Below the pieces are notes generated by a model that was not told where the DNA came from, searched no databases, and saw only the letters and a list, made by a program, of their open reading frames with translations. This document shows, one piece after another, positions 19,466 through 56,200 of a DNA stretch of 64,000 bases (its first letter is position 1; every line of letters begins with the position of its first letter). The translations under genes were made by a program, and so were the position numbers. The DNA comes from Henricia sp. BOLD:AAB3569 (Eukaryota > Echinodermata > Asteroidea > Spinulosida > Echinasteridae). The DNA lies in contig JBBELK010000308.1 of assembly GCA_037783545.1 (NCBI GenBank), positions 2,728,001 to 2,792,000 on the forward strand. Direction: 5' to 3'.

Positions 19466-19665
19466 AAAACGTATTTCCACCACTTTAGGCTACTCCACCT
19501 TTCATATTTTATCACAATTTGAAATAGTTGGTACCCTACAAAATGTTGAGCTTGTGGTAATTTTGAAATATTGTATATATACCTCACATCTGTCATTAGT
19601 TTTATTAAACTTAACAGTTGTTTCAGAAGTAGAAACATGTTCGTGTCACGTGTGTAGATTTATCT

Positions 19666-20970: not shown

Positions 20971-22252
20971 TTATATTTCGATGGTCTCTAAAAAAAAAAA
21001 ACCACAATAACTTCCCACTCGTGTGTAATTTCAAAGACGCGGCCTATGGTGTTCAGCGAACCGTACCGCCTGCACATGCGCACGTACTCTGCCAAAAGAC
21101 GGTTATTGTGGGAGCTGTCATGCCAACCATAAGTACAACGTTGCGTACTTTTGGTGTCATGGCCAAGTTTTGGGATATTTGCTTAACTCTTGCTCATCTG
21201 CATCACGCACAAATCTTTCGCCTTTTACTAAAGATTTCCGTGCAGATGAGCGACTTATGAGTCTATGAACAATTTTTCTACGGCCTGACGAAAGTTAGGC
21301 TAAACATTGAAAACAAAAGACAGGAAAAAGGCTTCCAGAGTAAGAAGCATATACAAATTGTCGTGGAAAACGACGGTTTAAGATAATCTTCACAGATAAA
21401 AATACCAATCAGTAAAGACAACTGCACTACCGTAATTAGAGACCACCAGTTGGCTTCATATAATTCAATTGGTAGGGTTTAGCAGAAGGTGGAGCCGAGT
21501 TGCTTTTCACTGCATCCAGAAATCCCAAACTCATAGACATTTGTATCAAAAAAAAATACGCTCAGCACGATGCCAGGTGATTTGAAAATGTTCATTAAGA
21601 GGGAAAGCTTCTCCACAGACCAACAAGTGGTGGGAGTCTAAAGGACTTAGATCCTAAAAGGTACCGGGCAGTTTAGGGCAAACATTGGCCTCACAGATCC
21701 AAAGGAATCAAGCATATTGACTAAAAATTGTATCAATTCTGAAAATGTTGGGCCGGGTCGCCTTGGCCTAGTCCACGCTGCAAGCCCACAAGCAATCAAT
21801 TTTGGTACTCGACTTAGCTTATAAATAAATTGCAAAGAAATAACTTAAAAACAGAGAACTTTAAAATCGAAATTAAAATACAGGTAAAGTGTGTCATCTT
21901 TATAATAAAGAAAAATTAAAGATGTGTACAGTAGGCTGCAATTTTGCTTCATCGAATGTAGTGATCTTTGTCAAATGAAGCTATTTACCAGCATTGAAAA
22001 TACTCGGACTCGAGACTCCAGTATAAGCTACTCGAGTCCCGATTTTCACTAACCCGACTTGACTCGAGACTCAAAGGCAGTTCGACTTGACTTGACTCTT
22101 GAGCAGAGGGAGACTCGTTACAACCCGTTATTCGCTTCTTTTGATCTAATCTTCTTCGAACGAAGAGGCGTGGGTTCACATCAGGAAATCTGTCAAATTG
22201 TCACATCTTCATTGAATGAGGTAATTTCCTGCATTTGAACGAGGTCTAAGTA

Positions 22253-30200: not shown

Positions 30201-33200
30201 ACCACTTCGCCCGAGTGCCATTTCGCCCCAAATTATTTCGTCCAAACACTACATCGCCCAAATGCCACTTCGCCCCAAAACCACTTTGTGCCCAGGCCGT
30301 GGTTCAGGGCGAAATGGTTCAGGGCGAAGTGATTTTGGAGCAAAATGACTGCAAACCCTTTTTTGACTGTTTTCTCAAAAGTTAGACGAAGTACGGAGCT
30401 GGTTTTTGCTCAGGTTGGTTTTAATCATGCATATCTTCAATCACACAGGGGGATAAAACTATTTGTAACAGTTCACCAATCATGTATACTATCTTTAACG
30501 AGCAGGGTTGAAAGTGAAACATAGTTCCTTTTTTTTGGCCTAACCAATTACTCTGTTCAATAACCCAGTACCGGTCCTAACATTCATGTTCATATGTGAA
30601 ATATGAGATCCAGGAACCAAACTACTCACAATGCAACAGAAAAGAGTAATTCCCAAAATTAGGCGTCCAAAAGTGTGACATGCTTTTTAAGATTTCCAAG
30701 TGTTTTTAAAGATTGAAAGTGGTTTCCCTGTAGAAAATAATTTTTTTTTATTTGAACAAATACCACTCAAATTTAATGTTTGTATGTAGATATGGCACCA
30801 AGGTTAATGCAAACTCATTCTACAGCTAATTTTCATTGGCGTAGGTAACCCGGGACACCAAACTCCTATCCAATATACCATGGAACAAATTATAAGCCTT
30901 TATTGTCTTTTGTTCTGAATATTTTTCAGAAAATTTTTGAAGAAAATGATGCTGCTCCCTATAATCACAGGCCACAGTCCATTACTGAGAATTTGCGGTC
31001 ATAAGTCGTGATTTTTGAAGCAGAGAGTGTCGTACGTAACTGGGACACCAAACATTTTAGACCCCTAATTTTGGGAATTACCCATATGTGAAATATGAGA
31101 TCCAGGAACCAAACTACTCATGTAACATAAAAACAAAAAACTGTTTCAAGAAAATTTTGGAAAAGAGATCTGACCCTGTTGCGTAGCCGGGTGTCAACGT
31201 GGCCGGCGTTCCTTTGTGCCTGGGGCTGGAACTGCTGTAGTAGTCATCTCGGATACTAACTGGACTGACACGGCTGCTTTGCAATTGGCTGTGGGAGGTT
31301 TGGGGGGAAAAACAAAAACACATTTACAGTAAGTTCATTTTGATGAATTCCTGGAACAACGACATTACTACTTATCTAAAGAAGAATGTTGGTAAACTAG
31401 CCTGCAGAAATTTCAGCTACATGTTTATGCAGCAATGTTTCAGAAAATCTTTAAAATCCATGCATTATTTTTGTGTTACGTGAATGCTAATTCATAAATA
31501 CCTTAAAGAGTTTACGCATCCCTATAGACCTTTATCACTGTGCGGCCCTATTAAAATGAAAGGAAAGTCCTGAAATCTGCCAAAATGGGTTGGGGATATG
31601 CTAAATTTTCATTTAGGACTATTTCTAAGGCATTTTCGGAAGAGTATATTTTTTGTAAATTTTGTAAGGACCGGACCTGTCGGCGCCGATGACCCCGGTC
31701 CTGGAAAAAAGAAAGTCCTGAAATCTGCCAAAATGAGGTGGGGATATGCTAAATTTTCATTTAGGATTATTTCTAAGGCATTTTCGGAAGAGTCTATTTT
31801 TTGTAAATTTTGTAAGGACCGGACCTGTCGGCGCCGATGACCCCGGTCCTGGAAAAAAAGAAAGTCCTGAAATCTGCCAAAATGAGGTGGGGATATGCTA
31901 ACTTTTCATTTAGGATTATTTCTAAGGCATTTTCGGAAGAGTCTATTTTTTGTAAATTTTGTAAGGACCGGACCTGTCGGCGCCGATGACCCCGGTCCTA
32001 GAAAAAAAGAAAGTCCTGAAATCTGCCAAAATGAGGTGGGGATATGCTAAATTTTCATTTAGGATTATTTCTAAGGCATTTTCGGAAGAGTCGATTTTTT
32101 GTAAATTTTGTAAGGACCGGACCTGTCGGCGCCGATGACCCCGGTCCTGGAAAAAAAGAAAGTCCTCAAATCTGCCAAAATGAGTTGGGGATATGCTAAA
32201 TTTTCATTTAGGATTATTTCTAAGGCATTTTCGGAAGAGTATATTTTTTGTAAATTTTGTAAGGACCGGACCTGTCGGCGCCGATGACCCCGGTCCTGGA
32301 AAAAAGAAAGTCCTGAAATCTGCCAAAATGAGGTGGGGATATGCTAAATTTTCATTTAGGATTATTTCTAAGGCATTTTCGGAAGAGTCTATTTTTTGTA
32401 AATTTTGTAAGGACCGGACCTGTCGGCGCCGATGACCCCGGTCCTGGAAAAAAGAAAGTCCTGAAATCTGCCAAAATGAGGTGGGGATATGCTAAATTTT
32501 CATTTAGGATTATTTCTAAGGCATTTTCGGAAGAGTCTATTTTTTGTAAATTTTGTAAGGACCGGACCTGTCGGCGCCGATGACCCCGGTCCTGGAAAAA
32601 AAGAAAGTCCTGAAATCTGCCAAAATGAGGTGGGGATATGCTAACTTTTCATTTAGGATTATTTCTAAGGCATTTTCGGAAGAGTCTATTTTTTGTAAAT
32701 TTTGTAAGGACCGGACCTGTCGGCGCCGATGACCCCGGTCCTAGAAAAAAAGAAAGTCCTGAAATCTGCCAAAATGAGGTGGGGATATGCTAAATTTTCA
32801 TTTAGGATTATTTCTAAGGCATTTTCGGAAGAGTCGATTTTTTGTAAATTTTGTAAGGACCGGACCTGTCGGCGCCGATGACCCCGGTCCTGGAAAAAAA
32901 GAAAGTCCTGAAATCTGCCAAAATGAGGTGGGGATATGCTAAATTTTCATTTAGGATTATTTCTAAGGCATTTTCGGAAGAGTCTATTTTTTGTAAATTT
33001 TGTAAGGACCGGACCTGTCGGCGCCGATGACCCCGGTCCTGGAAAAAAAGAAAGTCCTGAAATCTGCCAAAATGAGGTGGGGATATGCTAAATTTTCATT
33101 TAGGATTATTTCTAAGGCATTTTCGGAAGAGTCTATTTTTTGTAAATTTTGTAAGGACCGGACCTGTCGGCGCCGATGACCCCGGTCCTAGAAAAAAAGA

Positions 33201-36200
33201 AAGTCCTGAAATCTGCCAAAATGAGGTGGGGATATGCTAAATTTTCATTTAGGATTATTTCTAAGGCATTTTCGGAAGAGTCTATTTTTTGTAAAATTTG
33301 TAAGGACCGGACCTGTCGGTGCCGATGACCCCGGTCCTAGAAAAAAAGAAAGTCCTGAAATCTGCCAAAATGAGGTGGGGATATGCTAACTTTTCATTTA
33401 GGATTATTTCTAAGGCATTTTCGGAAGAGTCAATTTTTTGTAAATTTTGTAAGGACCGGACCTGTCGGCGCCGATGACCCCGGTCCTGGAAAAAAAGAAA
33501 GTCCTCAAATCTGCCAAAATGAGTTGGGGATATGCTAAATTTTCATTTAGGATTATTTCTGAGGCATTTTCGGAAGAGTCGATTTTTTGTAAATTTTGTA
33601 AGGACCGGACCTGTCGGCGCCGATGACCCCGGTCCTGGAAAAAAAGAAAGTCCTCAAATCTGCCAAAATGAGTTGGGGATATGCTAAATTTTCATTTAGG
33701 ATTATTTCTAAGGCATTTTCGGAAGAGTCGATTTTTTGTAAATTTTGTAAGGACCGGACCTGTCGGCGCCGATGACCCCGGTCCTGGAAAAAAAGAAAGT
33801 CCTGAAATCTGCCAAAATGAGGTGGGGATATGCTAAATTTTCATTTAGGATTATTTCTAAGGCATTTTCGGAAGAGTCAATTTTTTGTAAATTTTTTAAG
33901 GACCGGACCTGTCGGCGCCGATGACCCCGGTCCTGGAAAAACAGAAAGTCCTCAAATCTGCCAAAATGAGTTGGGGATATGCTAAATTTTCATTTAGGAT
34001 TATTTCTAAGGCATTTTCGGAAGAGTGGATTTTTTAAAAATTTTGTAAGGACCGTACCTGTCGGCGCCGAAAAAAAAAAGTCCTCAAAGAAAGTCCTGAA
34101 ATCTGCCAAAATGAGGTGGGGATATGCTAACTTTTCATTTAGGATCATTTCTAAGGCATTTTCGGAAGAGTCTATTTTTTGTAAATTTTGTAAGGACCGG
34201 ACCTGTCGGCGCCGATGACCCCGGTCCTGGAAAAATAGAAAGTCCTGAAATCTGCCAAAATGAGGTGGGGATATGCTAAATTTTCATTTAGGATTATTTC
34301 TAAGGCATTTTCGGAAGAGTCGATTTTTTAAAAATTTTGTAAGGACCGTACCTGTCGGCGCCGAAAAAAAAAAAGTCCTGAAATCTGCCAAAATGAGGTG
34401 GGGATAAGCTAAATTTTCATTTAGGATTATTTCTAAGGCATTTTCAGAAGAGTCGATTTTTAAAAAATTTTGTAAGGACCGTACCTGTCGGCGCCGAAAA
34501 AAAAAAAGTCCTGAAAGAAAGTCCTGAAATCTGCCAAAATGAGGTGGGGATATGCTAACTTTTCATTTAGGATCATTTCTAAGGCATTTTCGGAAGAGTC
34601 GATTTTTTGTAAATTTTGTAAGGACCGGACCTGTCGGCGCCGATGACCCCGGTCCTGGAAAAATACAAAGTCCTGAAATCTGCCAAAATGAGGTGGGGAT
34701 ATGCAAAATTTTCATTTAGGATTATTTCTAAGGCATTTTCGGAAGAGTCGATTTTTTAAAATTTTTGTAAGGACCGTACCTGTCGGCGCCGAAAAAAAAA
34801 AAGTCCTGAAAGAAAGTCCTGAAATCTGCCAAAATGAGGTGGGGATAAGCTAAATTTTCATTAAGGATTATTTCTAAGGCATTTTCAGAAGAGTCGATTT
34901 TTTGTAAATTTTGTAAGGACCGGACCTGTCGGCGCCGATGACCCCGGTCCTGGAAAAATACAAAGTCCTGAAATCTGCCAAAATGAGGTGGGGATATGCA
35001 AAATTTTCATTTAGGATTATTTCTAAGGCATTTTCGGAAGAGTCGATTTTTTAAAATTTTTGTAAGGACCGTACCTGTCGGCGCCGAAAAAAAAAAAGTC
35101 CTGAAAGAAAGTCCTGAAATCTGCCAAAATGAGGTGGGGATAAGCTAAATTTTCATTAAGGATTATTTCTAAGGCATTTTCAGAAGAGTCGATTTTTTAA
35201 AAATTTTGTAAGGACCGTACCTGTCGGCGCCGAAAAAAAAAAAGTCCTGAAAGAAAGTCCTGAAATCTGCCAAAATGAGGTGGGGATATGCTAACTTTTC
35301 ATTTAGGATCATTTCTAAGGCATTTTCGGAAGAGTCGATTTTTTGTAAATTTTGTAAGGACCGGACCTGTCGGCGCCGATGACCCCGGTCCTGGAAAAAT
35401 ACAAAGTCCTGAAATCTGCCAAAATGAGGTGGGGATATGCAAAATTTTCATTTAGGATTATTTCTAAGGCATTTTCGGAAGAGTCGATTTTTTAAAATTT
35501 TTGTAAGGACCGTACCTGTCGGCGCCGAAAAAAAAGAAGTCCTGAAAGAAAGTCCTGAAATCTGCCAAAATGAGGTGGGGATAAGCTAAATTTTCATTAA
35601 GGATTATTTCTAAGGCATTTTCAGAAGAGTCGATTTTTTGTAAATTTTGTAAGGACCGGACCTGTCGGCGCCGATGACCCCGGTCCTGGAAAAATACAAA
35701 GTCCTGAAATCTGCCAAAATGAGGTGGGGATATGCTAACTTTTCATTTAGGATCATTTCTAAGGCATTTTCGGAAGAGTCGATTTTTTGTAAATTTTGTA
35801 AGGACCGGACCTGTCGGCGCCGATGACCCCGGTCCTGGAAAAATACAAAGTCCTGAAATCTGCCAAAATGAGGTGGGGATATGCTAAATTTTCATTTATG
35901 ATTATTTCTAAGGCATTTTCGGAAGAGTCGATTTTTAAAAAAATTTGTAAGGACCGTACCTGTCGGCGCCGAAAAAAAAAAAGGTCCTGAAAGAAAGTCC
36001 TGAAATCTGCCAAAATGAGGTGGGGATATGCTAACTTTTCATTTAGGATCATTTCTAAGGCATTTTCGGAAGAGTCGATTTTTTGTAAATTTTGTAAGGA
36101 CCGGACCTGTCGGCGCCGATGACCCCGGTCCTGGAAAAATACAAAGTCCTGAAATCTGCCAAAATGAGGTGGGGATATGCAAAATTTTCATTTAGGATTA

Positions 36201-39200
36201 TTTCTAAGGCATTTTCGGAAGAGTCGATTTTTTAAAAATTTTGTAAGGACCGTACCTGTCGGCGCCGAAAAAAAAAAAGTCCTGAAAGAAAGTCCTGAAA
36301 TCTGCCAAAATGAGGTGGGGATAAGCTAAATTTTCATTAAGGATTATTTCTAAGGCATTTTCAGAAGAGTCGATTTTTTAAAAAATTTGTAAGGACCGTA
36401 CCTGTCGGCGCCGAAAAAAAAAAAGTCCTGAAAGAAAGTCCTGAAATCTGCCAAAATGAGGTGGGGATATGCTAACTTTTCATTTAGGATCATTTCTAAG
36501 GCATTTTCGGAAGAGTCGATTTTTTGTAAATTTTGTAAGGACCGGACCTGTCGGCGCCGATGACCCCGGTCCTGGAAAAATACAAAGTCCTGAAATCTGC
36601 CAAAATGAGGTGGGGATATGCTAAATTTTCATTTAGGATTATTTCTAAGGCATTTTCGGAAGAGTCGATTTTTTAAAAAATTTGTAAGGACCGTACCTGT
36701 CGGCGCCGAAAAAAAAAAAGTCCTGAAAGAAAGTCCTGAAATCTGCCAAAATGAGGTGGGGATATGCTAACTTTTCATTTAGGATCATTTCTAAGGCATT
36801 TTCGGAAGAGTCGATTTTTTGTAAATTTTGTAAGGACCGGACCTGTCGGCGCCGATGACCCCGGTCCTGGAAAAATACAAAGTCCTGAAATCTGCCAAAA
36901 TGAGGTGGGGATATGCTAAATTTTCATTTATGATTATTTCTAAGGCATTTTCGGAAGAGTCGATTTTTAAAAAAATTTGTAAGGACCGTACCTGTCGGCG
37001 CCGAAAAAAAAAAAGGTCCTGAAAGAAAGTCCTGAAATCTGCCAAAATGAGGTGGGGATATGCTAACTTTTCATTTAGGATCATTTCTAAGGCATTTTCG
37101 GAAGAGTCGATTTTTTGTAAATTTTGTAAGGACCGGACCTGTCGGCGCCGATGACCCCGGTCCTGGAAAAATACAAAGTCCTGAAATCTGCCAAAATGAG
37201 GTGGGGATATGCTAACTTTTCATTTAGGATCATTTCTAAGGCATTTTCGGAAGAGTCGATTTTTTGTAAATTTTGTAAGGACCGGACCTGTCGGCGCCGA
37301 TGACCCCGGTCCTGGAAAAATACAAAGTCCTGAAATCTGCCAAAATGAGGTGGGGATATGCTAAATTTTCATTTAGGATTATTTCTAAGGCATTTTCGGA
37401 AGAGTCGATTTTTTTAAAAAATTTGTAAGGACCGTACCTGTCGGCGCCGAAAAAAAAAAAGTCCTGAAAGAAAGTCCTGAAATCTGCCAAAATGAGGTGG
37501 GGATATGCTAACTTTTCATTTAGGATCATTTCTAAGGCATTTTCGGAAGAGTCGATTTTTTGTAAATTTTGTAAGGACCGGACCTGTCGGCGCCGATGAC
37601 CCCGGTCCTGGAAAAATACAAAGTCCTGAAATCTGCCAAAATGAGGTGGGGATATGCAAAATTTTCATTTAGGATTATTTCTAAGGCATTTTCGGAAGAG
37701 TCGATTTTTTAAAAATTTTGTAAGGACCGTACCTGTCGGCGCCGAAAAAAAAAAAGTCCTGAAAGAAAGTCCTGAAATCTGCCAAAATGAGGTGGGGATA
37801 AGCTAAATTTTCATTAAGGATTATTTCTAAGGCATTTTCAGAAGAGTCGATTTTTTAAAAAATTTGTAAGGACCGTACCTGTCGGCGCCGAAAAAAAAAA
37901 AGTCCTGAAAGAAAGTCCTGAAATCTGCCAAAATGAGGTGGGGATATGCTAACTTTTCATTTAGGATCATTTCTAAGGCATTTTCGGAAGAGTCGATTTT
38001 TTGTAAATTTTGTAAGGACCGGACCTGTCGGCGCCGATGACCCCGGTCCTGGAAAAATACAAAGTCCTGAAATCTGCCAAAATGAGGTGGGGATATGCTA
38101 AATTTTCATTTATGATTATTTCTGAGGCATTTTCGGAAGAGTCGATTTTTAAAAAATTTTGTAAGGACCGTACCTGTCGGCGCCGAAAAAAAAAAAGGTC
38201 CTGAAAGAAAGTCCTGAAATCTGCCAAAATGAGGTGGGGATATGCTAACTTTTCATTTAGGATCATTTCTAAGGCATTTTCGGAAGAGTCGATTTTTTGT
38301 AAATTTTGTAAGGACCGGACCTGTCGGCGCCGATGACCCCGGTCCTGGAAAAATACAGGCATTTTCGGAAGAGTCGATTTTTTAAAAATTTTGTAAGGAC
38401 CGTACCTGTCGGCGCCGGAAAAAAAAAAGTCCTGAAAGAAAGTCCTGAAATCTGCCAAAATGAGGTGGGGATATGCTAACTTTTCATTTAGGATCATTTC
38501 TAAGGCATTTTCGGAAGAGTCGATTTTTGTTTTTTGTCCTGAAAAAATAGAAAGTCCTGAAATCTGCCAAAATGAGGTGGGGATATGCTAAATTTTCATT
38601 TAGGATTATTTCTAAGGCATTTTCGGAAGAGTCGATTTTTTAAAAATTTTGTAAGGACCGTACCTGTCGGCGCCGAAAAAAAAAAAGTCCTGAAAGAAAG
38701 TCCTGAAATCTGCCAAAATGAGGTGGGGATAAGCTAAATTTTCATTTAGGATTATTTCTAAGGCATTTTCAGAAGAGTCGATTTTTTAAAAATTTTGTAA
38801 GGACCGTACCTGTCGGCGCCGATGACCCCGGTCCTGGAAAAATAGAAAGTCCTGAAATCTGCCAAAATGAGGTGGGGATATGCTAAATTTTCATTTAGGA
38901 TTATTTCTAAGGCATTTTCGGAAGAGTCGATTTTTAAAAAATTTTGTAAGGACCGTACCTGTCGGCGCCGAAAAAAAAAAAGTCCTGAAAGAAAGTCCTG
39001 AAATCTGCCAAAATGAGGTGGGGATATGCTAACTTTTCATTTAGGATCATTTCTAAGGCATTTTCGGAAGAGTCGATTTTTTGTAAATTTTGTAAGGACC
39101 GGACCTGTCGGCGCCGATGACCCCGGTCCTGGAAAAATAGAAAGTCCTGAAATCTGCCAAAATGAGGTGGGGATATGCTAAATTTTCATTTAGGATTATT

Positions 39201-42200
39201 TCTAAGGCATTTTCGGAAGAGTAGATTTTTTAAAAATTTTGTAAGGACCGTACCTGTCGGCGCCGAAAAAAAAAAAGTCCTGAAAGAAAGTCCTGAAATC
39301 TGCCAAAATGAGGTGGGGATATGCTAACTTTTCATTTAGGATCATTTCTAAGGCATTTTCGGAAGAGTCGATTTTTTGTAAATTTTGTAAGGACCGGACC
39401 TGTCGGCGCCGATGACCCCGGTCCTGGAAAAATACAAAGTCCTGAAATCTGCCAAAATGAGGTGGGGATATGCTAAATTTTCATTTATGATTATTTCTAA
39501 GGCATTTTCGGAAGAGTCGATTTTTAAAAAATTTTGTAAGGACCGTACCTGTCGGCGCCGAAAAAAAAAAAGGTCCTGAAAGAAAGTCCTGAAATCTGCC
39601 AAAATGAGGTGGGGATATGCTAACTTTTCATTTAGGATCATTTCTAAGGCATTTTCGGAAGAGTCGATTTTTTGTAAATTTTGTAAGGACCGGACCTGTC
39701 GGCGCCGATGACCCCGGTCCTGGAAAAATACAGGCATTTTCGGAAGAGTCGATTTTTTAAAAATTTTGTAAGGACCGTACCTGTCGGCGCCGGAAAAAAA
39801 AAAGTCCTGAAAGAAAGTCCTGAAATCTGCCAAAATGAGGTGGGGATATGCTAACTTTTCATTTAGGATCATTTCTAAGGCATTTTCGGAAGAGTCGATT
39901 TTTGTTTTTTGTCCTGGAAAAATAGAAAGTCCTGAAATCTGCCAAAATGAGGTGGGGATATGCTAAATTTTCATTTAGGATTATTTCTAAGGCATTTTCG
40001 GAAGAGTCGATTTTTTAAAAATTTTGTAAGGACCGTACCTGTCGGCGCCGAAAAAAAAAAAGTCCTGAAAGAAAGTCCTGAAATCTGCCAAAATGAGGTG
40101 GGGATAAGCTAAATTTTCATTTAGGATTATTTCTAAGGCATTTTCAGAAGAGTCGATTTTTTTAAAATTTTGTAAGGACCGTACCTGTCGGCGCCGATGA
40201 CCCCGGTCCTGGAAAAATAGAAAGTCCTGAAATCTGCCAAAATGAGGTGGGGATATGCTAAATTTTCATTTAGGATTATTTCTAAGGCATTTTCGGAAGA
40301 GTCGATTTTTAAAAAATTTTGTGAGGACCGTACCTGTCGGCGCCGAAAAAAAAAAAGTCCTGAAAGAAAGTCCTGAAATCTGCCAAAATGAGGTGGGGAT
40401 ATGCTAACTTTTCATTTAGGATCATTTCTAAGGCATTTTCGGAAGAGTCGATTTTTTGTAAATTTTGTAAGGACCGGACCTGTCGGCGCCGATGACCCTG
40501 GTCCTGGAAAAATAGAAAGTCCTGAAATCTGCCAAAATGAGTTGGGGATATGCTAAATTTTCATTTAGGATTATTTCTAAGGCATTTTCGGAAGAGTGGA
40601 TTTTTTAAAAATTTTGTAAGGACCGTACCTGTCGGCGCCGAAAAAAAAAAGTCCTCAAAGAAAGTCCTGAAATCTGCCAAAATGAGGTGGGGATATGCTA
40701 ACTTTTCATTTAGGATCATTTCTAAGGCATTTTCGGAAGAGTCTATTTTTTGTAAATTTTGTAAGGACCGGACCTGTCGGCGCCGATGACCCCGGTCCTG
40801 GAAAAATAGAAAGTCCTGAAATCTGCCAAAATGAGGTGGGGATATGCTAAATTTTCATTTAGGATTATTTCTAAGGCATTTTCGGAAGAGTCGATTTTTA
40901 AAAAATTTTGTAAGGACCGTACCTGTCGGCGCCGAAAAAAAAAAAGTCCTGAAAGAAAGTCCTGAAATCTGCCAAAATGAGGTGGGGATAAGCTAAATTT
41001 TCATTTAGGATTATTTCTAAGGCATTTTCAGAAGAGTCGATTTTTAAAATATTTTGTAAGGACCGTACCTGTCGGCGCCGAAAAAAAAAAAGTCCTGAAA
41101 GAAAGTCCTGAAATCTGCCAAAATGAGGTGGGGATATGCTAACTTTTCATTTAGGATCATTTCTAAGGCATTTTCGGAAGAGTCGATTTTTTGTAAATTT
41201 TGTAAGGACCGGACCTGTCGGCGCCGATGACCCCGGTCCTGGAAAAATAGAAAGTCCTGAAATCTGCCAAAATGAGGTGGGGATAAGCTAAATTTTCATT
41301 AAGGATTATTTCTAAGGCATTTTCGGAAGAGTCGATTTTTTAAAAATTTTGTAAGGACCGTACCTGTCGGCGCCGAAAACAAAAAAGTCCTGAAAGAAAG
41401 TCCTGAAATCTGCCAAAATGAGGTGGGGATAAGCTAAATTTTCATTAAGGATTATTTCTAAGGCATTTTCGGAAGAGTCGATTTTTTAAAAATTTTGTAA
41501 GGACCGTACCTGTCGGCGCCGAAAAAAAAAAAGTCCTGAAAGAAAGTCCTGAAATCTGCCAAAATGAGGTGGGGATAAGCTAAATTTTCATTAAGGATTA
41601 TTTCTAACGCATTTTCAGAAGAGTCAATTTTTTGTAAATTTTGTAAGGACCGGACCTGTCGGCGCCGATGACCCCGGTCCTGGAAAAATACAAAGTCCTG
41701 AAATCTGCCAAAATGAGGTGGGGATATGCTAAATTTTCATTTATGATTATTTCTAAGGCATTTTCGGAAGAGTCGATTTTTTAAAAATTTTGTAAGGACC
41801 GTCCGTACCTGTCGGCGCCGAAAAAAAAAAAGTCCTGAAAGAAAGTCCTGAAATCTGCCAAAATGAGGTGGGGATAAGCTAAATTTTCATTTAGGATTAT
41901 TTCTAAGGCATTTTCAGAAGAGTCGATTTTTAAAAGATTTTGTAAGGACCGTACCTGTCGGCGCCGAAAAAAAAAAAGTCCTGAAAGAAAGTCCTGAAAT
42001 CTGCCAAAATGAGGTGGGGATATGCTAACTTTTCATTTAGGATCATTTCTAAGGCATTTTCGGAAGAGTCGATTTTTTGTAAATTTTGTAAGGACCGGAC
42101 CTGTCGGCGCCGATGACCCCGGTCCTGGAAAAATAGAAAGTCCTGAAATCTGCCAAAATGAGGTGGGGATATGCTAAATTTTCATTTAGGATTATTTCTA

Positions 42201-45200
42201 AGGCATTTTCGGAAGAGTAGATTTTTTAAAAATTTTGTAAGGACCGTACCTGTCGGCGCCGAAAAAAAAAAAGTCCTGAAAGAAAGTCCTGAAATCTGCC
42301 AAAATGAGGTGGGGATATGCTAACTTTTCATTTAGGATCATTTCTAAGGCATTTTCGGAAGAGTCGATTTTTTGTAAATTTTGTAAGGACCGGACCTGTC
42401 GGCGCCGATGACCCCGGTCCTGGAAAAATACAAAGTCCTGAAATCTGCCAAAATGAGGTGGGGATATGCAAAATTTTCATTTAGGATTATTTCTAAGGCA
42501 TTTTCGGAAGAGTAAATTTTTTAAAATTTTTGTAAGGACCGTACCTGTCGGCGCCGAAAACAAAAAAGTCCTGAAAGAAAGTCCTGAAATCTGCCAAAAT
42601 GAGGTGGGGATAAGCTAAATTTTCATTAAGGATTATTTCTAAGGCATTTTCAGAAGAGTCGATTTTTTAAAAATTTTGTAAGGACCGTACCTGTCGGCGC
42701 CGGAAAAAAAAAAGTCCTGAAAGAAAGTCCTGAAATCTGCCAAAATGAGGTGGGGATATGCTAACTTTTCATTTAGGATCATTTCTAAGGCATTTTCGGA
42801 AGAGTCGATTTTTGTTTTTTGTCCTGGAAAAATAGAAAGTCCTGAAATCTGCCAAAATGAGGTGGGGATATGCTAAATTTTCATTTAGGATTATTTCTAA
42901 GGCATTTTCGGAAGAGTCGATTTTTTAAAAATTTTGTAAGGACCGTACCTGTCGGCGCCGAAAAAAAAAAAGTCCTGAAAGAAAGTCCTGAAATCTGCCA
43001 AAATGAGGTGGGGATAAGCTAAATTTTCATTTAGGATTATTTCTAAGGCATTTTCAGAAGAGTCAATTTTTTTAAAATTTTGTAAGGACCGTACCTGTCG
43101 GCGCCGATGACCCCGGTCCTGGAAAAATAGAAAGTCCTGAAATCTGCCAAAATGAGGTGGGGATATGCTAAATTTTCATTTAGGATTATTTCTAAGGCAT
43201 TTTCGGAAGAGTCGATTTTTAAAAAATTTTGTAAGGACCGTACCTGTCGGCGCCGAAAAAAAAAAAGTCCTGAAAGAAAGTCCTGAAATCTGCCAAAATG
43301 AGGTGGGGATATGCTAACTTTTCATTTAGGATCATTTCTAAGGCATTTTCGGAAGAGTCGATTTTTTGTAAATTTTGTAAGGACCGGACCTGTCGGCGCC
43401 GATGACCCTGGTCCTGGAAAAATAGAAAGTCCTGAAATCTGCCAAAATGAGTTGGGGATATGCTAAATTTTCATTTAGGATTATTTCTAAGGCATTTTCG
43501 GAAGAGTGGATTTTTTAAAAATTTTGTAAGGACCGTACCTGTCGGCGCCGAAAAAAAAAAGTCCTCAAAGAAAGTCCTGAAATCTGCCAAAATGAGGTGG
43601 GGATATGCTAACTTTTCATTTAGGATCATTTCTAAGGCATTTTCGGAAGAGTCTATTTTTTGTAAATTTTGTAAGGACCGGACCTGTCGGCGCCGATGAC
43701 CCCGGTCCTGGAAAAATAGAAAGTCCTGAAATCTGCCAAAATGAGGTGGGGATATGCTAAATTTTCATTTAGGATTATTTCTAAGGCATTTTCGGAAGAG
43801 TCGATTTTTAAAAAATTTTGTAAGGACCGTACCTGTCGGCGCCGAAAAAAAAAAAGTCCTGAAAGAAAGTCCTGAAATCTGCCAAAATGAGGTGGGGATA
43901 AGCTAAATTTTCATTTAGGATTATTTCTAAGGCATTTTCAGAAGAGTCGATTTTTAAAATATTTTGTAAGGACCGTACCTGTCGGCGCCGAAAAAAAAAA
44001 AGTCCTGAAAGAAAGTCCTGAAATCTGCCAAAATGAGGTGGGGATATGCTAACTTTTCATTTAGGATCATTTCTAAGGCATTTTCGGAAGAGTCGATTTT
44101 TTGTAAATTTTGTAAGGACCGGACCTGTCGGCGCCGATGACCCCGGTCCTGGAAAAATAGAAAGTCCTGAAATCTGCCAAAATGAGGTGGGGATAAGCTA
44201 AATTTTCATTAAGGATTATTTCTAAGGCATTTTCGGAAGAGTCGATTTTTTAAAAATTTTGTAAGGACCGTACCTGTCGGCGCCGAAAACAAAAAAGTCC
44301 TGAAAGAAAGTCCTGAAATCTGCCAAAATGAGGTGGGGATAAGCTAAATTTTCATTAAGGATTATTTCTAAGGCATTTTCGGAAGAGTCGATTTTTTAAA
44401 AATTTTGTAAGGACCGTACCTGTCGGCGCCGAAAAAAAAAAAGTCCTGAAAGAAAGTCCTGAAATCTGCCAAAATGAGGTGGGGATAAGCTAAATTTTCA
44501 TTAAGGATTATTTCTAACGCATTTTCAGAAGAGTCAATTTTTTGTAAATTTTGTAAGGACCGGACCTGTCGGCGCCGATGACCCCGGTCCTGGAAAAATA
44601 CAAAGTCCTGAAATCTGCCAAAATGAGGTGGGGATATGCTAAATTTTCATTTATGATTATTTCTAAGGCATTTTCGGAAGAGTCGATTTTTTAAAAATTT
44701 TGTAAGGACCGTCCGTACCTGTCGGCGCCGAAAAAAAAAAAGTCCTGAAAGAAAGTCCTGAAATCTGCCAAAATGAGGTGGGGATAAGCTAAATTTTCAT
44801 TTAGGATTATTTCTAAGGCATTTTCAGAAGAGTCGATTTTTAAAAGATTTTGTAAGGACCGTACCTGTCGGCGCCGAAAAAAAAAAAGTCCTGAAAGAAA
44901 GTCCTGAAATCTGCCAAAATGAGGTGGGGATATGCTAACTTTTCATTTAGGATCATTTCTAAGGCATTTTCGGAAGAGTCGATTTTTTGTAAATTTTGTA
45001 AGGACCGGACCTGTCGGCGCCGATGACCCCGGTCCTGGAAAAATAGAAAGTCCTGAAATCTGCCAAAATGAGGTGGGGATATGCTAAATTTTCATTTAGG
45101 ATTATTTCTAAGGCATTTTCGGAAGAGTAGATTTTTTAAAAATTTTGTAAGGACCGTACCTGTCGGCGCCGAAAAAAAAAAAGTCCTGAAAGAAAGTCCT

Positions 45201-48200
45201 GAAATCTGCCAAAATGAGGTGGGTATATGCTAACTTTTCATTTAGGATCATTTCTAAGGCATTTTCGGAAGAGTCGATTTTTTGTAAATTTTGTAAGGAC
45301 CGGACCTGTCGGCGCCGATGACCCCGGTCCTGGAAAAATACAAAGTCCTGAAATCTGCCAAAATGAGGTGGGGATATGCAAAATTTTCATTTAGGATTAT
45401 TTCTAAGGCATTTTCGGAAGAGTAAATTTTTTAAAATTTTTGTAAGGACCGTACCTGTCGGCGCCGAAAACAAAAAAGTCCTGAAAGAAAGTCCTGAAAT
45501 CTGCCAAAATGAGGTGGGGATAAGCTAAATTTTCATTAAGGATTATTTCTAAGGCATTTTCAGAAGAGTCGATTTTTTAAAAATTTTGTAAGGACCGTAC
45601 CTGTCGGCGCCGAAAAAAAAAAAGTCCTGAAAGAAAGTCCTGAAATCTGCCAAAATGAGGTGGGGATATGCTAACTTTTCATTTAGGATCATTTCTAAGG
45701 CATTTTCGGAAGAGTCGATTTTTTGTAAATTTTGTAAGGACCGGACCTGTCGGCGCCGATGACCCCGGTCCTGGAAAAATACAAAGTCCTGAAATCTGCC
45801 AAAATGAGGTGGGGATATGCTAAATTTTCATTTATGATTATTTCTGAGGCATTTTCGGAAGAGTCGATTTTTAAAAAATTTTGTAAGGACCGTACCTGTC
45901 GGCGCCGAAAAAAAAAAAGGTCCTGAAAGAAAGTCCTGAAATCTGCCAAAATGAGGTGGGGATATGCTAACTTTTCATTTAGGATCATTTCTAAGGCATT
46001 TTCGGAAGAGTCGATTTTTTGTAAATTTTGTAAGGACCGGACCTGTCGGCGCTGATGACCCCGGTCCTGGAAAAATACAAAGTCCTGAAATCTGCCAAAA
46101 TGAGGTGGGGATATGCTAACTTTTCATTTAGGATCATTTCTGAGGCATTTTCGGAAGAGTCGATTTTTTGTAAATTTTGTAAGGACCGGACCTGTCGGCG
46201 CCGATGACCCCGGTCCTGGAAAAATACAAAGTCCTGAAATCTGCCAAAATGAGGTGGGGATATGCTAAATTTTCATTTAGGATTATTTCTAAGGCATTTT
46301 CGGAAGAGTCGATTTTTTAAAAAATTTGTAAGGACCGTACCTGTCGGCGCCGAAAAAAAAAAAGTCCTGAAAGAAAGTCCTGAAATCTGCCAAAATGAGG
46401 TGGGGATATGCTAACTTTTCATTTAGGATCATTTCTAAGGCATTTTCGGAAGAGTCGATTTTTTGTAAATTTTGTAAGGACCGGACCTGTCGGCGCCGAT
46501 GACCCCGGTCCTGGAAAAATACAAAGTCCTGAAATCTGCCAAAATGAGGTGGGGATATGCAAAATTTTCATTTAGGATTATTTCTAAGGCATTTTCGGAA
46601 GAGTCGATTTTTTAAAAATTTTGTAAGGACCCTACCTGTCGGCGCCGAAAAAAAAAAAGTCCTGAAAGAAAGTCCTGAAATCTGCCAAAATGAGGTGGGG
46701 ATAATGCGGCCTTCCCACATACAGGTATAATACGGCGGATGCGGGGCGGAACGTAATTTGGCGGATTGGTGGCGGATGCGACGGGAAAAATGCAGTGCAC
46801 GGGTGAGTCGCCGGGTGTGCAGGATGTCCGCCGACTGCCCGGCGGCTGTCAGGCGGGTGATACGCCGAAATCGGTGCAGACGAGCAGGGGTTAGGCCCGG
46901 CTGTGATGGACGATCCGTCGGGTTGTACGGATCAGTCGGCGGATACAAGGAGTACAGTAGGGATGCCTCTAGGGACTCGTCGGCAAGGACAGCTAATACG
47001 GCGACTGTCCGCCGACTATGACGGCTGGTCCGAAGGATACAAGTCGCATATATAAAGGACCTGCCGCACAGCCTCTGGTCATTCGTTCACAAGACTTCAG
47101 AGAGGCAACATGTCCCAGGATACAACAGATGAAGATGTCTACCTTGCCAGTGCCCAGGTCCTTTGTACGACTGCCCTTGTAGTGGTTCTGGACGAGGAAG
47201 AAAGGGAGAGGAGCAGAAAGAAAAGAGAACAACAGGCAGCCCGTAGAGCAGCAAGAAGAAGATGGTGGGTGCGACCATGGTTGCTTCGCAGAGTGCAGCA
47301 GGGCCATTACCACACTCTACTTCAAGAACTGCAGAGAGAAGATGAAGGCAGACTGAGGAATTTCCTGCGCATCGACGCTGCAATCTGGCAAGAAATTTTG
47401 GAGAAGATCCAGGGGAAGATACAGCGACAGAACACCTTCTGGAGGAAGGCACTGGAGCCTGGCCTGAAGCTTGCTATTACCCTGAGATATTTGGCAACAG
47501 GAAGCAGCTACCAGAGTCTGATGTATGGTTTCAGAGTGGCCCACAACACCATCTCCAAGTTTATTCCGGAGGTCTGCGAGGCTATCATTGACGCCTATGC
47601 TGAGGAGGTGATAGTCTGCCCATCAACACCAGATGAATGGAGGCAGGTGGCGAAGAAGTTTGAGGACCGCTGGAACTTCCCCCACTGCATAGGTGCAGTT
47701 GATGGCAAGCTCCGAGATGTCCCAAGAAGTCCGGCTCCATTTACTACAATTACAAAGGCTTCTACTCTATAGTGCTGATGGCTGTAGTGGATGCTGACTA
47801 CAAGTTCATCTACGTGAATGCAGGAGCGAATGGAGCTGGATCCGATGGCGGGGTGTTTGCTGAGACGGACTTCCGGGAAGTGTTGGAAAGTGATACTCTG
47901 GGGCTACCCCCTGCAGAACCACTTCCTTGTGACCAAGTGCCTTTGACGTACTTCCTGTTGGGGGATGCCGCTTTTCCTCTTCGCAGCTGGTTGATGAAGC
48001 CATTGCCTATACGCAACATGACCATGGAGCAGCGCATCTACAACTACCGATGCTCCAGAGCCAGACGTGTGGTAGAGAATGCCTTCGGCATCCTGGCAGC
48101 CAGATTTCGTTGTCTCCTGACAACTATGCCACAGCAACCAAATACTGTGGAGTCCATCGTCCTGGCCTGCTGCTGCCTGCATAACCTGCTGCGAATCCGG

Positions 48201-50188
48201 TTCCCTGCCCAGACCCACAACGAGGTAGATGGAGAAGACGGAGCCACACATCAAGTCATCCCAGGTACCTGGAGGGATGTAGGAGAACTGCAAGATGCTG
48301 CTCCAGGACCCAGAGGCAATTATGGGACAACACAAGCCAAGAGACAGAGACTGTACCTGGTGGAGTACTTCAACTCGGAAGCTGGCAGTGTTGAGTGGCA
48401 GGGCGACATGGTCTAGTCTCTGCACCTGTGGATTTCGCTTTGCATATTTGTATTATATGTCATGTATATAGCTATTGTAAGTAGAAATTCCTAAATGTAT
48501 ATATGTATTACTAGTAAGAAAATTGTACATATTACTTGTGTGTTGTCAAAACTTGTACATATTATTGCTGTCATGTGCTTCTCATTAATTATTACCATTT
48601 TAAAAAGTAGACACTTGTACTTGTGTCAGGCCCCGCAAAAAAGAAGAGTGCTTTTGTCATGGCCCAAACAAATTAAATAAAAGACTTCAGTTGTTAGGCC
48701 AAAAGAAAATAAAATTCTGAGAGTGGTATCAGAGATAAAAAAAAGTAAGAAAAGAAAGTTGAAGGGAAAAGGTCATTGAAATGGAAAGTGCATAGGTGGT
48801 TTTTCATTAGCAAGTGGGACTGAGGGAACTTTTTTTTTTGCCAACACACTGTGATGATTGGTTTATTCTTTTTGGAGGATTTGGTGGCCCTGAAAAGGGC
48901 CGGGGGTTTCAGTTGGAGCAAGACTTGCTCACTGGTAACGGCTGCTGCTGGACCTCGCTGGTGATGTTGTTGTAGGGCTCCTCTGACTGGTGAAGGAGAA
49001 TGGAGTCCCTGGAGTCCCTGGAGTCATGTTGTCCAAAGAGGCCAACAGGCTGCCGATGGATGGAGGGCCGGTGTCGGTCGCTGCAGGTCCTGATGTTGAA
49101 GGCACCGGATGCTGCTGCTGTGGCTGAGCTGTCGGGGTCCCTGGCTGTGGCATCCTGTAAGGTGCAGGAGGCGGCTGCATAGGCACATATGCCATCCCAT
49201 AGCCCTGGTACTGCATGGGCATGGGATGCATCATGGTGGGCTGCGGTGGATGCTGGAACTGGTGTTGCTGCTGTTGTTTCCCACTTGTGCTTGGAAGTCT
49301 TCGTAGTCATCCTTCTCAAGCTCAATGGCCTCGGTGTAGAGGTACTGGCACCAGTTCTTCACACGCAGGCTGTGGGGGTCCTTGGGTGCCTGTTCCACCT
49401 TGGTCCTCTGTTCCACAGCTTGGGAGGTCAGCAGGGCAGCATCGACGAGTCGCTGGACCATAGGAGAAGGTCCTTCAGTCTTCCTCTTCTTCCCCTTCCC
49501 CCTGGAGGTTCCGGCCACAGGCTCCTCGATGAATGCCACCTCAGGTTCTTCCTCCTCCTCTTCCTCCTCGGGATCTGACTGGCGCTGTTCGCTGGAACTG
49601 GAGTCGGAGGTCCTCTTCTGCCGCACGATCCGAGCAGCCTGTCTGCCGGGCACCCTCTTGATGTGGTCGGCGAGGAACCCAAAGTTCTGGATCACCCAGG
49701 ACTCCTTCTCCGTTGGGTTCTTCTTCGCTGTTCCAGAAGGACCTTGCTTCAGAAGCTTGCCAGCCGATGTCCGCATGGAATCCAGCCAGGTCTTCAAGGC
49801 GTGGGCAGAGCAGGGAACAGACAGAGAGGCAGCTATCTCCTCCAGCTTCCAGGACTTCAGGGCAGTGTCCTTGTAGTCACGCCGGGCCTTGTCATAGAAC
49901 ATAGGGTGGTCCTCGAACCAGTCAGCCACCTTATGTTCATCTTCGGGAGGCAGGTGCAGCTTGTCATGTCTTCTCCTGGCTGGGTCTTCAGAGCTGCGCT
50001 GAGACAAGGATGATCCAGGTCTGGAGGTCCGGCCCAAAACTGGCGAAGGAGGTCCAGGAACCGGACTGGCTGGCTCAACATCCTCAGCAGGATCCGCAGC
50101 AGGCTCTTCAGCAGGCTCTTCGGTAGGCCCCTCAGCAGGCCCCTCATCAGCAGGCGTTGACTGGAGTGGCTGTTCTTCCTGCTCTCTT

Positions 50189-50232
<44 letters not shown>

Positions 50233-53200
50233 TGTGGACTTCTTGGAAGCTCTGACTCTAGGCATTCTTGTATACTATGTTGTCGTACACGTCGATGTGA
50301 TCTCGTCGAAAGCAGAGATACGAATGACTTTTCTGGGCCAGCGCACTCCTATTTATACTACCTCCAAACCGTAGTGGACCCGTCCTCAAGCCGTAGTGCA
50401 CTCGTCGGATCATACGTGGTATCCGCCAATCAGCCGGCGCTATCCGTCGCATACGTACCTCATACCTGGTACACCCGTCACAGCCGTGAACCCATCCGTG
50501 ACGCATCCCTGCACACCCGGCATGGAGCCGTGGTGGATCCGACGACTTCACACGCCACGTGTCTGCCACGGCTGTTCACGTATGCGCCGGATTAGCCGCC
50601 GGGTGTAGGCGTATGCCGTCGGATGTCCGCCGGCTGTGCTACGGGTGTGTCTTACCGGGAGCAGACTCCCCGAAATTTCAAACATGTTTGACATTTTCGC
50701 GGCGTGGCCACGGCTTCGCCGTATCCGCCACTGCTACTAGGGATGCCCAGGGGTGTACTGGGGATCCTCAGGGATGTCTCCCGGATGAGCAGGGATGGGC
50801 ATCCGCCGTCGATACGACGTACTATACCTGTATGTGGGAAGGGGGCTTAAGCTAAATTTTCATTAAGGATTATTTCTAAGGCATTTTCAGAAGAGTCGAT
50901 TTTTTTAAAAATTTGTAAGGACCGTACCTGTCGGCGCCGAAAAAAAAAAAGTCCTGAAAGAAAGTCCTGAAATCTGCCAAAATGAGGTGGGGATATGCTA
51001 ACTTTTCATTTAGGATCATTTCTAAGGCATTTTCGGAAGAGTCGATTTTTTGTAAATTTTGTAAGGACCGGACCTGTCGGCGCCGATGACCCCGGTCCTG
51101 GAAAAATACAAAGTCCTGAAATCTGCCAAAATGAGGTGGGGATATGCTAAATTTTCATTTATGATTATTTCTAAGGCATTTTCGGAAGAGTCGATTTTTA
51201 AAAAATTTTGTAAGGACCGTACCTGTCGGCGCCGAAAAAAAAAAAGGTCCTGAAAGAAAGTCCTGAAATCTGCCAAAATGAGGTGGGGATATGCTAACTT
51301 TTCATTTAGGATCATTTCTAAGGCATTTTCGGAAGAGTCGATTTTTTGTAAATTTTGTAAGGACCGGACCTGTCGGCGCCGATGACCCCGGTCCTGGAAA
51401 AATACAGGCATTTTCGGAAGAGTCGATTTTTTAAAAATTTTGTAAGGACCGTACCTGTCGGCGCCGGAAAAAAAAAAGTCCTGAAAGAAAGTCCTGAAAT
51501 CTGCCAAAATGAGGTGGGGATATGCTAACTTTTCATTTAGGATCATTTCTAAGGCATTTTCGGAAGAGTCGATTTTTTTTTTTTGTCCTGGAAAAATAGA
51601 AAGTCCTGAAATCTGCCAAAATGAGGTGGGGATAAGCTAAATTTTCATTTAGGATTATTTCTAAGGCATTTTCAGAAGAGTCGATTTTTTAAAAATTTTG
51701 TAAGGACCGTACCTGTCGGCGCCGATGACCCCGGTCCTGGAAAAATAGAAAGTCCTGAAATCTGCCAAAATGAGGTGGGGATATGCTAAATTTTCATTTA
51801 GGATTATTTCTAAGGCATTTTCGGAAGAGTCGATTTTTAAAAAATTTTGTAAGGACCGTACCTGTCGGCGCCGAAAAAAAAAAAGTCCTGAAAGAAAGTC
51901 CGGAAATCTGCCAAAATGAAGTGGGGATATGCTAACTTTTCATTTAGGATCATTTCTAAGGCATTTTCGGAAGAGTCGATTTTTTGTAAATTTTGTAAGG
52001 ACCGGACCTGTCGGCGCCGATGACCCTGGTCCTGGAAAAATACAAAGTCCTGAAATCTGCCAAAATGAGTTGGGGATATGCTAAATTTTCATTTAGGATT
52101 ATTTCTAAGGCATTTTCGGAAGAGTCGATTTTTTAAAAATTTTGTAAGGACCGTACCTGTCGGCGCCGAAAAAAAAAAAGTCCTGAAAGAAAGTCCTGAA
52201 ATCTGCCAAAATGAGGTTGGGGATATGCTAACTTTTCATTTAGGATCATTTCTAAGGCATTTTCGGAAGAGTCGATTTTTTAAAAATTTTGTAAGGACCG
52301 TACCTGTCGGCGCCGAAAAAAAAAAAGTCCTGAAAGAAAGTCCTGAAATCTGCCAAAATGAGGTGGGGATATGCTAACTTTTCATTTAGGATCATTTCTA
52401 AGGCATTTTCGGAAGAGTCGATTTTTTGTAAATTTTGTAAGGACCGGACCTGTCGGCGCCGATGACCCCGGTCCTGGAAAAATAGAAAGTCCTGAAATCT
52501 GCCAAAATGAGGTGGGGATATGCTAAATTTTCATTTAGGATTATTTCTAAGGCATTTTCGGAAGAGTCGATTTTTTAAAAATTTTGTAAGGACCGTACCT
52601 GTCGGCGCCGAAAAAAAAAAAGTCCTGAAAGAAAGTCCTGAAATCTGCCAAAATGAGGTGGGGATAAGCTAAATTTTCATTTAGGATTATTTCTAAGGCA
52701 TTTTCAGAAGAGTCGATTTTTAAAAAATTTTGTAAGGACCGTACCTGTCGGCGCCGAAAAAAAAAAGTCCTGAAAGAAAGTCCTGAAATCTGCCAAAATG
52801 AGGTGGGGATATGCTAAATTTTCATTTAGGATTATTTCTAAGGCATTTTCGGAAGAGTCGATTTTTTAAAAATTTTGTAAGGACCGTACCTGTCGGCGCC
52901 GAAAAAAAAAGAAGTCCTGAAAGAAAGTCCTGAAATCTGCCAAAATGAGGTGGGGATAAGCAAAATTTTCATTTAGGATTATTTCTAAGGCATTTTCAGA
53001 AGAGTCGATTTTTAAAAAAATTTGTAAGGACCGTACCTGTCGGCGCCGAAAAAAAAAAAGTCCTGAAAGAAAGTCCTGAAATCTGCCAAAATGAGGTGGG
53101 GATATGCTAACTTTTCATTTAGGATCATTTCTAAGGCCTTTTGCGGAAGAGTCGATTTTTTGTAAATTTTGTAAGGACCGGACCTGTCGGCGCCGATGAC

Positions 53201-56200
53201 CCCGGTCCTGGAAAAATAGAAAGTCCTGAAATCTGCCAAAATGAGGTGGGGATATGCTAAATTTTCATTTAGGATTATTTCTAAGGCATTTTCGGAAGAG
53301 TCGATTTTTTAAAAATTTTGTAAGGACCGTACCTGTCGGCGCCGAAAAAAAAAAAGTCCTGAAAGAAAGTCCTGAAATCTGCCAAAATGAGGTGGGGATA
53401 AGCTAAATTTTCATTTAGGATTATTTCTAAGGCATTTTCAGAAGAGTCGATTTTTAAAAAATTTTGTAAGGACCGTACCTGTCGGCGCCGAAAAAAAAAA
53501 GTCCTGAAAGAAAGTCCTGAAATCTGCCAAAATGAGGTGGGGATATGCTAAATTTTCATTTAGGATTATTTCTAAGGCATTTTCGGAAGAGTCAATTTTT
53601 TAAAAATTTTGTAAGGACCGTCGAAAAAAAAAAAGTCCTGAAAGAAAGTCCTGAAATCTGCCAAAATGAGGTGGGGATAAGCTAAATTTTCATTTAGGAT
53701 TATTTCTAAGACATTTTCAGAAGAGTCGATTTTTAAAAAAATTTGTAAGGACCGTACCTGTCGGCGCCGAAAAAAAAAAAGTCCTGAAAGAAAGTCCTGA
53801 AATCTGGCAAAATAAGGTGGGGATAAGCTAAATTTTCATTTAGGATTATTTCTAAGGCATTTTCAGAAGAGTCGATTTTTAAAAGATTTTGTAAGGACCG
53901 TACCTGTCGGCGCCGAAAAAAAAAAAGTCCTGAAAGAAAGTCCTGAAATCTGCCAAAATGAGGTGGGGATATGCTAACTTTTCATTTAGGATCATTTCTA
54001 AGGCATTTTCGGAAGAGTCAATTTTTTGTAAATTTTGTAAGGACCGGACCTGTCGGCGCCGATGACCCCGGTCCTGGAAAAATAGAAAGTCCTGAATTCT
54101 GCCAAAATGAGGTGGGGATATGCTAAATTTTCATTTAGGATAATTTCTAAGGCATTTTCGGAAGAGTCAATTTTTTAAAAATTTTGTAAGGACCGGAACA
54201 TGCCTGACATGTACACGTACTATGCAGTGGGGAATAAGACAAAGATGGACGCACCGTGATAAAGGTCTATTGGCTGAGAGCACATCACGTGGCCAGTATT
54301 AAATGGACGATAAAGGCCCGGTCAGTCTTTAACACTTTTGAGCGTGGCTTGCGGCCATAACCGTGCCCTGGTCAACGCGTATGGAACACGCACACGCACA
54401 CAGAAACTGCACGCTCCCGAAAGCAAAAATGTGCACTGTGATGAGTACCCGGTCGTGCGCGTACAACATGCTTGCATTAGGGGGTAACGCGCGCGATCAA
54501 ACAAAAACAACATGACGCACAGCTAAAGTTTGTAGTCCCTGATGAAAATTAAAACACCATTTGCAATAAAGTTCTCAAGATCCAAGAAGGTACTTACTGA
54601 ACCGAAAGAGTGAGTTTAGTTCTGTATGCCACGGATAGGACGACGGAGCCAATAGGCGTAGGTACTGAACCAACATTGAGGGAATGGAAATCTGTAAGAT
54701 CAACAAAATTGCTTCAGGTCAATTCCAGAAATTCAGAATTTGAGGACTTGTAATGCCTCACGTATTCAAGTTGTTTGATTTTAAACATGTGTTCTTCAAG
54801 CATCCTTGACGGAAGTTTAACTCCTGAAAAACTGATCGTAATGCCATTCTGAATAAGTGTGGTACGTTAAAAAACAAATTTACATATGGGTCTGTCCACA
54901 GTAATGGAGTACATTTGAAAAATAAGACAATAATTCCTTTCAGATGTCTTTGTTTTGTTCTCAGGAGATAACTTTTGCCCAAAAAGGTAAGAAATTGCTG
55001 CCACAACATACATTTTTGAAAAGCTTGTGTACAAATTTTCCTATTACGTATGTAAGGTGGACAGACCATTTTGTGACTTTTTTCTGTCTTTGTAACATGC
55101 GTAATAGGAACATTTGTGCACGGGGTTTTCACAAATGTATGTTGTAGGACTATTTTTCGTACTCCTTGGTGAAAAAGTTATTTCCTCAGTTTAGCTTGAT
55201 AATTTAAAGATAAAATTAAGACATTTGAAGTGAACTGGGACCTAAGATCTTGAATGTTACAGAAATGTACCCTATTACTGTGGACAGACCCATATATATG
55301 CTGAGGGTAATTGTTCTCCAAAGCACAGTATTTATTTAAAAAATCTCAACACATCATAAAGCTGTCGATTCTACGAGGAATACGCTATTAAAGGAGATGT
55401 TCAGATTTTTCCAGAAAATGGATTTCGTTCTAACCTAACAATAACATAAAATGCTTCCCCAAAATACTATCCATGGGAAGAAAACATGAAATTTGCAATC
55501 TCCAATTTGGATGTGGAAGCAAAAAGGTTGGTGTAATCACTGCACTGCTTTATGGAACGGATAAATTAGTTTACAAAACATCTGTGGTTTTTTGACGATA
55601 TCCTTGGAAATATATGGATTGAGAGTGCTGAATTTCAGAATGGTAATGAGAAAAATATGACAAATGATACGGTATCAAAATCTCAACACTCGTGGGGAAA
55701 AAATGGGGGCGCTCAAAAATGTGACCTGACATGCTCTTTTAACTTCTAGCAGTTATATTAAATTTGATAAAAGCGTAAAAATCTTACTTTCGCCAAGATA
55801 GGCCAATTTCAAATCCCCATAGTACATGCGGGACATGACGCGGTAGTCGGCGCCCAACTGGTGCCGTGCGATACGGTACGCTGGCGTGACCCTGGATATG
55901 CAAATGAGCGACTTGATGAGGAGACCGAGTCGGTTGTAGACGGCGTAGTGGATTTTGGCGTTGGGGTCGCAGGACTCGTTTAGGACAAGACTCCAGCATT
56001 CTAAGACCATTCTGTCACCCTGTGATGTCGGAAATGAGAAAGGGAAAAGGAAGAGAAAGGAATAGGTAGAGCACTACTTAAAAGTTGATGTTTTAAAGGC
56101 AGTATACATGATTGGTATCTCGAAAATCAGAAATGTTCACAGATTTACGCCTAATTTACACAATATAAACATGATGACCGTGAATGGTGAATGGTTTTGT

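Follow-up and report, generated by a model that had tools for sequence, protein, structure and literature searches.

A satellite array enclosed by inverted repeats within an intron raises the question of whether the array grew inside a small transposable element or reached its site ready-made. We examined such a locus in a sea star, Henricia sp. The window, that is, the whole stretch of DNA that was analysed, is 64,000 nucleotides long.

Paired inverted ends abut the satellite array

The block at 31524..54270 consists of a tandem array and one Harbinger element between inverted ends. Its parts are as follows.

31524..31562, plus strand: left non-satellite end, 39 bp
31524..31547, plus strand: left terminal inverted repeat, 24 bp, of which 22 match the right end
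31563..46704, plus strand: satellite array, left part; type A units only at 31563-33944, then mixed A and B units, often alternating
46705..50847, plus strand: Harbinger element, with TAA target duplications at 46702-46704 and 50848-50850
50848..54195, plus strand: right part of the satellite array, ending in a truncated unit; border placed to a few bases
54196..54270, plus strand: right non-satellite end, about 75 bp
54247..54270, minus strand: right terminal inverted repeat

Across the whole window, the sequence ATAGACCTTTATCAC matches exactly at 31524 (plus strand) and 54270 (minus strand). With up to three mismatches permitted the window yields three matches, where 1.94 would be expected; the additional one, at 27709, carries three mismatches, and no further copy of the block end is evident in the window at this threshold. 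Read in inverted orientation, the two ends are identical at 20 of 21 bases. BLAST aligns them at 22 of 24 (E 2.9e-5), and 24 of 27 bases agree once the alignment extends into the flanking CC. As a control, an 80-bp and a 110-bp segment were drawn at random from the two flanks 300 times, and each pair was scored for its best 21-base inverted match. The pairs scored 11 to 17, and 17 was reached in only 2 of the 300. The satellite block between inverted ends that the preliminary description had reported is thus present, with ends matching better than any control pair.

The distance from the outer edge to the nearest repeat unit is about 39 bp on the left and about 75 bp on the right, where the border is placed within a few bases. 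The end segments have no significant similarity to the monomer (eight comparisons, p 0.118 to 0.586), so the monomer is not traceable to the ends, and we rejected a derivation of the unit from them. Neither a second copy of the ends nor a match to the 148-bp satellite was found in the viral_contigs or genome_contigs collections; these negatives say little because neither collection is composed of animal genomes.

Structure and growth of the array

The array spans 31563 to about 54195 and is interrupted only by the Harbinger element. It totals approximately 18,490 bp, or about 125 units of a near-identical 148-base repeat that occurs in two types. Cutting at a conserved anchor gave 120 segments, and the 112 that measured 100-160 bp were aligned; the pairwise figures therefore exclude eight segments, seven of them merged and one split by the Harbinger. 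Among the aligned units, 105 are 145-150 bp long, four are 112 bp, and one each is 133, 134 and 115 bp, and their mean pairwise identity is 0.887. Type A units are mostly 149 bp and type B units mostly 146 bp; the two differ chiefly over the final 25 bases or so.

The first unit of the array was missed by the anchor and is described separately. It differs from a type A unit at four positions, and the truncated last unit is mixed between types A and B. An array that grows by exchange is expected to show, at its edges, such differences in the first unit and a truncated, mixed last unit.

Within the left part of the array, a long segment recurs at a lag of 2,910 bp.

39732..42813, plus strand: duplicated segment, first copy
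42642..45723, plus strand: duplicated segment, second copy

The two copies align over 3,082 bp with five mismatches and no gaps. If the assembly is right, this recurrence shows recent growth of the array by multi-unit blocks.

A Harbinger element inserted into the array

Both ends of the Harbinger element carry the 20 bases CCTTCCCACATACAGGTATA, as read by eye, and the array resumes in phase after it. The in-phase array and the TAA duplications together indicate that the Harbinger entered after the array already existed at that point. Its main reading frames are the following.

47056-47772 and 47703-48416, plus strand: transposase frames
50274-49231, minus strand: MADF frame

In Pfam searches the second plus-strand frame matched DDE_Tnp_4 and the minus-strand frame 50274-49231 matched MADF_DNA_bdg; there was no Pfam match for the first plus-strand frame or for a second minus-strand frame. 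The transposase seems to be split over the two overlapping plus-strand frames. With a DDE_Tnp_4 transposase, a MADF protein and a 3-bp target duplication, the insert has the features of PIF/Harbinger elements, and the insertion described earlier within the satellite is borne out by its target duplications, its common end bases and both protein domains.

The Harbinger element also contains a match to the Rfam Histone3 3'UTR stem-loop (48862-48906, minus strand; 34.8 bits against a gathering threshold of 34), which is the sole match in the window to a strict stem-loop pattern. It reads GGCCCTTTTCAGGGCCACCA followed by CAAAAAGAATAAA, so that an AATAAA follows as well. The MADF frame is followed on the minus strand by a frame at 49306-48929, and the stem-loop begins 27 nt past the stop of this second frame; the two frames may represent one gene. 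A transposon gene with a histone-type 3' signal would be unusual, and may be more unusual than the satellite finding itself. A literature search for transposon genes with histone-type 3' signals, judged by title, returned nothing related.

The host gene is ATG13

The gene was identified with a human ATG13 probe, in searches with the whole probe and with short pieces of it. This autophagy gene lies on the minus strand, and its matches are colinear on both sides of the block.

59677-59603, minus strand: match upstream of the block, E 0.004 in the short-piece search
58652-58548, minus strand: match upstream of the block, E 9e-5
57135-57010, minus strand: match upstream of the block, E 3e-6
56028-55789, minus strand: match upstream of the block, E 2e-23
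54606..54689, minus strand: coding exon on the upstream side, E 0.002 alone
29623..29673, minus strand: first recognisable exon downstream of the block, E 0.044 alone, supported by colinearity
27879-27811, minus strand: match downstream of the block, E 2.3
26060-25983, minus strand: match downstream of the block, E 0.92 (whole probe) or 0.028 (piece)
24258-24187, minus strand: match downstream of the block, E 8.6e-4

Support is strong upstream of the block; the downstream matches are individually weak and draw mostly on their order and strand. Elsewhere, the short-piece searches gave chance matches at E values of 0.28 and above, and no convincing exon was found for human ATG13 residues 196-244. 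Counting the recognised coding exons, the block lies in the fifth intron of ATG13, and the colinear matches on either side agree with the intronic location proposed before.

On the sense strand of ATG13 (minus), the block at 31524-54270 holds 58 acceptor-like motifs consisting of a run of five or more T and CCAG, compared with two in the remaining 41,253 bases of the window. Their number makes an effect on ATG13 splicing testable. A U5 spliceosomal RNA match (21184-21301, plus strand) lies past the last recognised ATG13 exon, about 2.9 kb away and on the other strand; it covers model positions 1-117 of 117 with 90.5 bits against a gathering threshold of 40.

Target site and flanking repeats

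No target duplication longer than 2 bp was found at the borders of the block. When the ends are taken to begin with ATAGACC, there is only a T before and a T after. When they are taken from GACC or AGACC, a 2-bp TA or AT appears by eye on both sides. The TA on both sides that results from starting at GACC is Tc1/mariner-like, yet it lies inside the inverted repeat, and a flanking TA or AT proves nothing because these letters belong to the inverted repeat itself.

The left flank is part of a dispersed repeat. Against copies near 6.3, 7.5 and 14.3 kb it scores 37 to 43.5, as high as none of 200 shuffles; against two other copies the similarity is not significant (p 0.15 and 0.535). For the right flank, the scores against these five copies are 10.0 to 16.0 (p 0.055 to 0.92), which gives no evidence that the repeat of the left flank carries on there. 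A search of the window for an empty site, made with the flanks joined, gave no interrupted copy.

Relation to the local MITE family

The preliminary description took the initial ATAGACC of the block to be that of the local MITE family. The first seven bases are indeed common to both, and kinship does not follow from them. The family (5652-5802 and relatives) starts with ATAGACCGTATCRAATAGC; beyond the seven bases, the block ends have in common with it, by eye, only TATCA with a one-base gap. We therefore did not assign the block to this family, since the ends diverge after about seven bases, and the common stretch could reflect one transposase group or chance. ATAGACC occurs 12 times in the window: at the two block ends, at four MITE ends (221, 4024, 5652 and 5802), in a shortened MITE relative (2014), inside another repeat (12553), and at 15900, 24801, 27081 and 58231, where we saw no link to the block or the MITE.

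Origin of the block

We hypothesize, with a probability of roughly 0.6, that a short inverted-repeat element in the fifth intron of ATG13 had its interior multiplied to about 125 units by unequal exchange and later received the Harbinger. The starting point would be a non-autonomous element with terminal inverted repeats, approximately 260 bp long if it held one monomer, whose interior, whether native to it or a captured repeat unit, underwent tandem duplication. The number of units could then have risen to about 125 through unequal exchange and the duplication of blocks while the ends stayed put, and the Harbinger would have inserted into one unit afterwards. Such growth of the interior finds support in the significant inverted pair of ends, which borders the array directly to the left and right, and the duplicated block means that the array grew. 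The ends would once have belonged to one mobile element, which presumably arrived by transposition before the array grew, and the block is likely to be immobile now. It is probably MITE-born. The earlier proposal that the satellite grew from the interior of a small transposon is thus partly supported, by the abutting ends and the block duplication; the borders do not show a clean insertion, as there is no duplication above 2 bp and the left-flank repeat is broken.

The missing duplication of more than 2 bp, the broken left-flank repeat and the dissimilarity of ends and unit would also be compatible with integration of an array into an inverted-repeat element, or with sequence having been lost at a border. 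A satellite array that already existed, such as an excised circle or the copy of an array elsewhere, might have integrated into or between copies of an inverted-repeat element, so that the ends frame the array and did not generate it. All three observations would suit such an event, the repeat of the left flank stopping at the border. We nevertheless consider it rather unlikely, because the ends are one matched pair, each near the array, and no extra copy of an end occurs inside the block at up to three mismatches. An artefact of assembly, in which the length of the array or the near-identical 3.1-kb repeat arose by misassembly of a shorter array, is improbable. Segments of 3,082 bp with five mismatches are hard to assemble, but the ends, Harbinger junctions and unit variants are orderly, and misassembly would alter the size of the block and not its paired ends.

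Helentrons and their non-autonomous relatives (HINEs) are defined by palindromic subterminal repeats and a 3' stem-loop in the relevant section of PMC4067079. A HINE whose centre holds tandem repeats and which entered between two T without duplicating its target would account for the T on either side of the block and the lack of a clear duplication, and central repeats are typical of HINEs in the parts of PMC4067079 and PMC7492417 that treat them. Judged by at least two T on each side and no target duplication, the borders have one T on the left, and two on the right only if the terminal base is counted. The repeats lie at the very ends of the block and are not palindromic by eye. Inverted pairs of at least 12 bases are absent from 31400-31600, and the only one in 54150-54400 is the A/T palindrome of the last unit; in the fold of the right end, the only stem is the 5-bp ACATG/CATGT towards the inner edge. 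We do not favour a Helentron reading, which appears very unlikely for this block. It is similarly unlikely that the ends are still recognisable to a transposase and that the whole multi-kilobase array could move, or has moved, as cargo between loci and seeds arrays in gene introns.

Comparison with known systems

If the ends belong to one element, the growth of its interior would place the block at an intermediate stage between MITE and satellite: about 125 units have accumulated in the intron of a conserved gene, both ends can still be recognised, and part of the array growth can be ordered relative to the Harbinger insertion. A MITE-associated satellite of this kind, miDNA4, was reportedly described by Scalvenzi and Pollet in 2014. 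In the accounts of miDNA4 given in PMC9659126 and PMC12628747, a Tc1/mariner MITE of Xenopus tropicalis contains a satellite unit once or as a variable array, and the model has the array expand within the MITE, after which the ends decay. These reviews also report Xstir. Like miDNA4 as characterised there, the block has paired terminal inverted repeats that closely flank a tandem array; it differs in being a single locus of about 125 units with no superfamily assigned, where miDNA4 is a Tc1/mariner MITE.

Tetris (TIR-220) in Drosophila virilis, in the sections of PMC4079207 that concern it, has tandem repeats amplified within an inverted-repeat element into arrays of up to 66 copies. The block resembles it, on that account, in holding a satellite-like array inside an inverted-repeat element. 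The Tetris repeats are described there as lying in long foldback terminal inverted repeats and having 37 bp in common with the outer repeat, whereas the block ends are 24 bp and have nothing significant in common with the unit. The Cg_HINE Helentrons of Crassostrea gigas similarly have satellite-like central repeats inside a mobile element, with units of 160-180 bp dominant in that genome and arrays of 4.56 to 5.05 units on average in three clusters, according to the parts of PMC7492417 dealing with them. The subterminal repeats with inverted repeat and palindrome noted there were not found in the block.

The route from MITE to satellite, which the preliminary description had proposed, is therefore already published for miDNA4, Xstir and Tetris. 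On the evidence of the sections cited, it is described in frogs and flies, and the block is a large further example. At about 125 units it exceeds the array lengths stated there for Tetris and the oyster HINEs. The review PMC12628747 mentions Helitron-derived arrays of up to several hundred repeats, so the size of the block alone is no record.

Other repeats of the window

The window also contains a dispersed element with an internal tandem array.

18990-19467, 29986-30502 and 56094-56549: dispersed element; inverted ends near TAAAGGCAGTATACATGATTGGT; 16-bp tandem repeats of TTCGCCCCAAAACCAT inside, in arrays of somewhat different length

The inverted ends are clear in the copies at about 18.99 and 56.09 kb, and the left end is altered in the copy at 29.99 kb. 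Partial copies near 10.9 and 12.0 kb comprise the right-hand part only. These copies demonstrate that small elements with internal repeats exist in the same genome, which counts in favour of reading the block as an element with a multiplied interior.

ARAGORN called no tRNA in the window. A 78-bp tandem array at 58741-59238 (6.4 copies) has a tRNA-like core, CATAGCTCAGCTGGTAGAGCAT, and is inverted relative to a smaller array at 12844-13155. A 218-bp inverted repeat at 17176-17393 and 17623-17840 is 99% identical, with its arms 229 bp apart.
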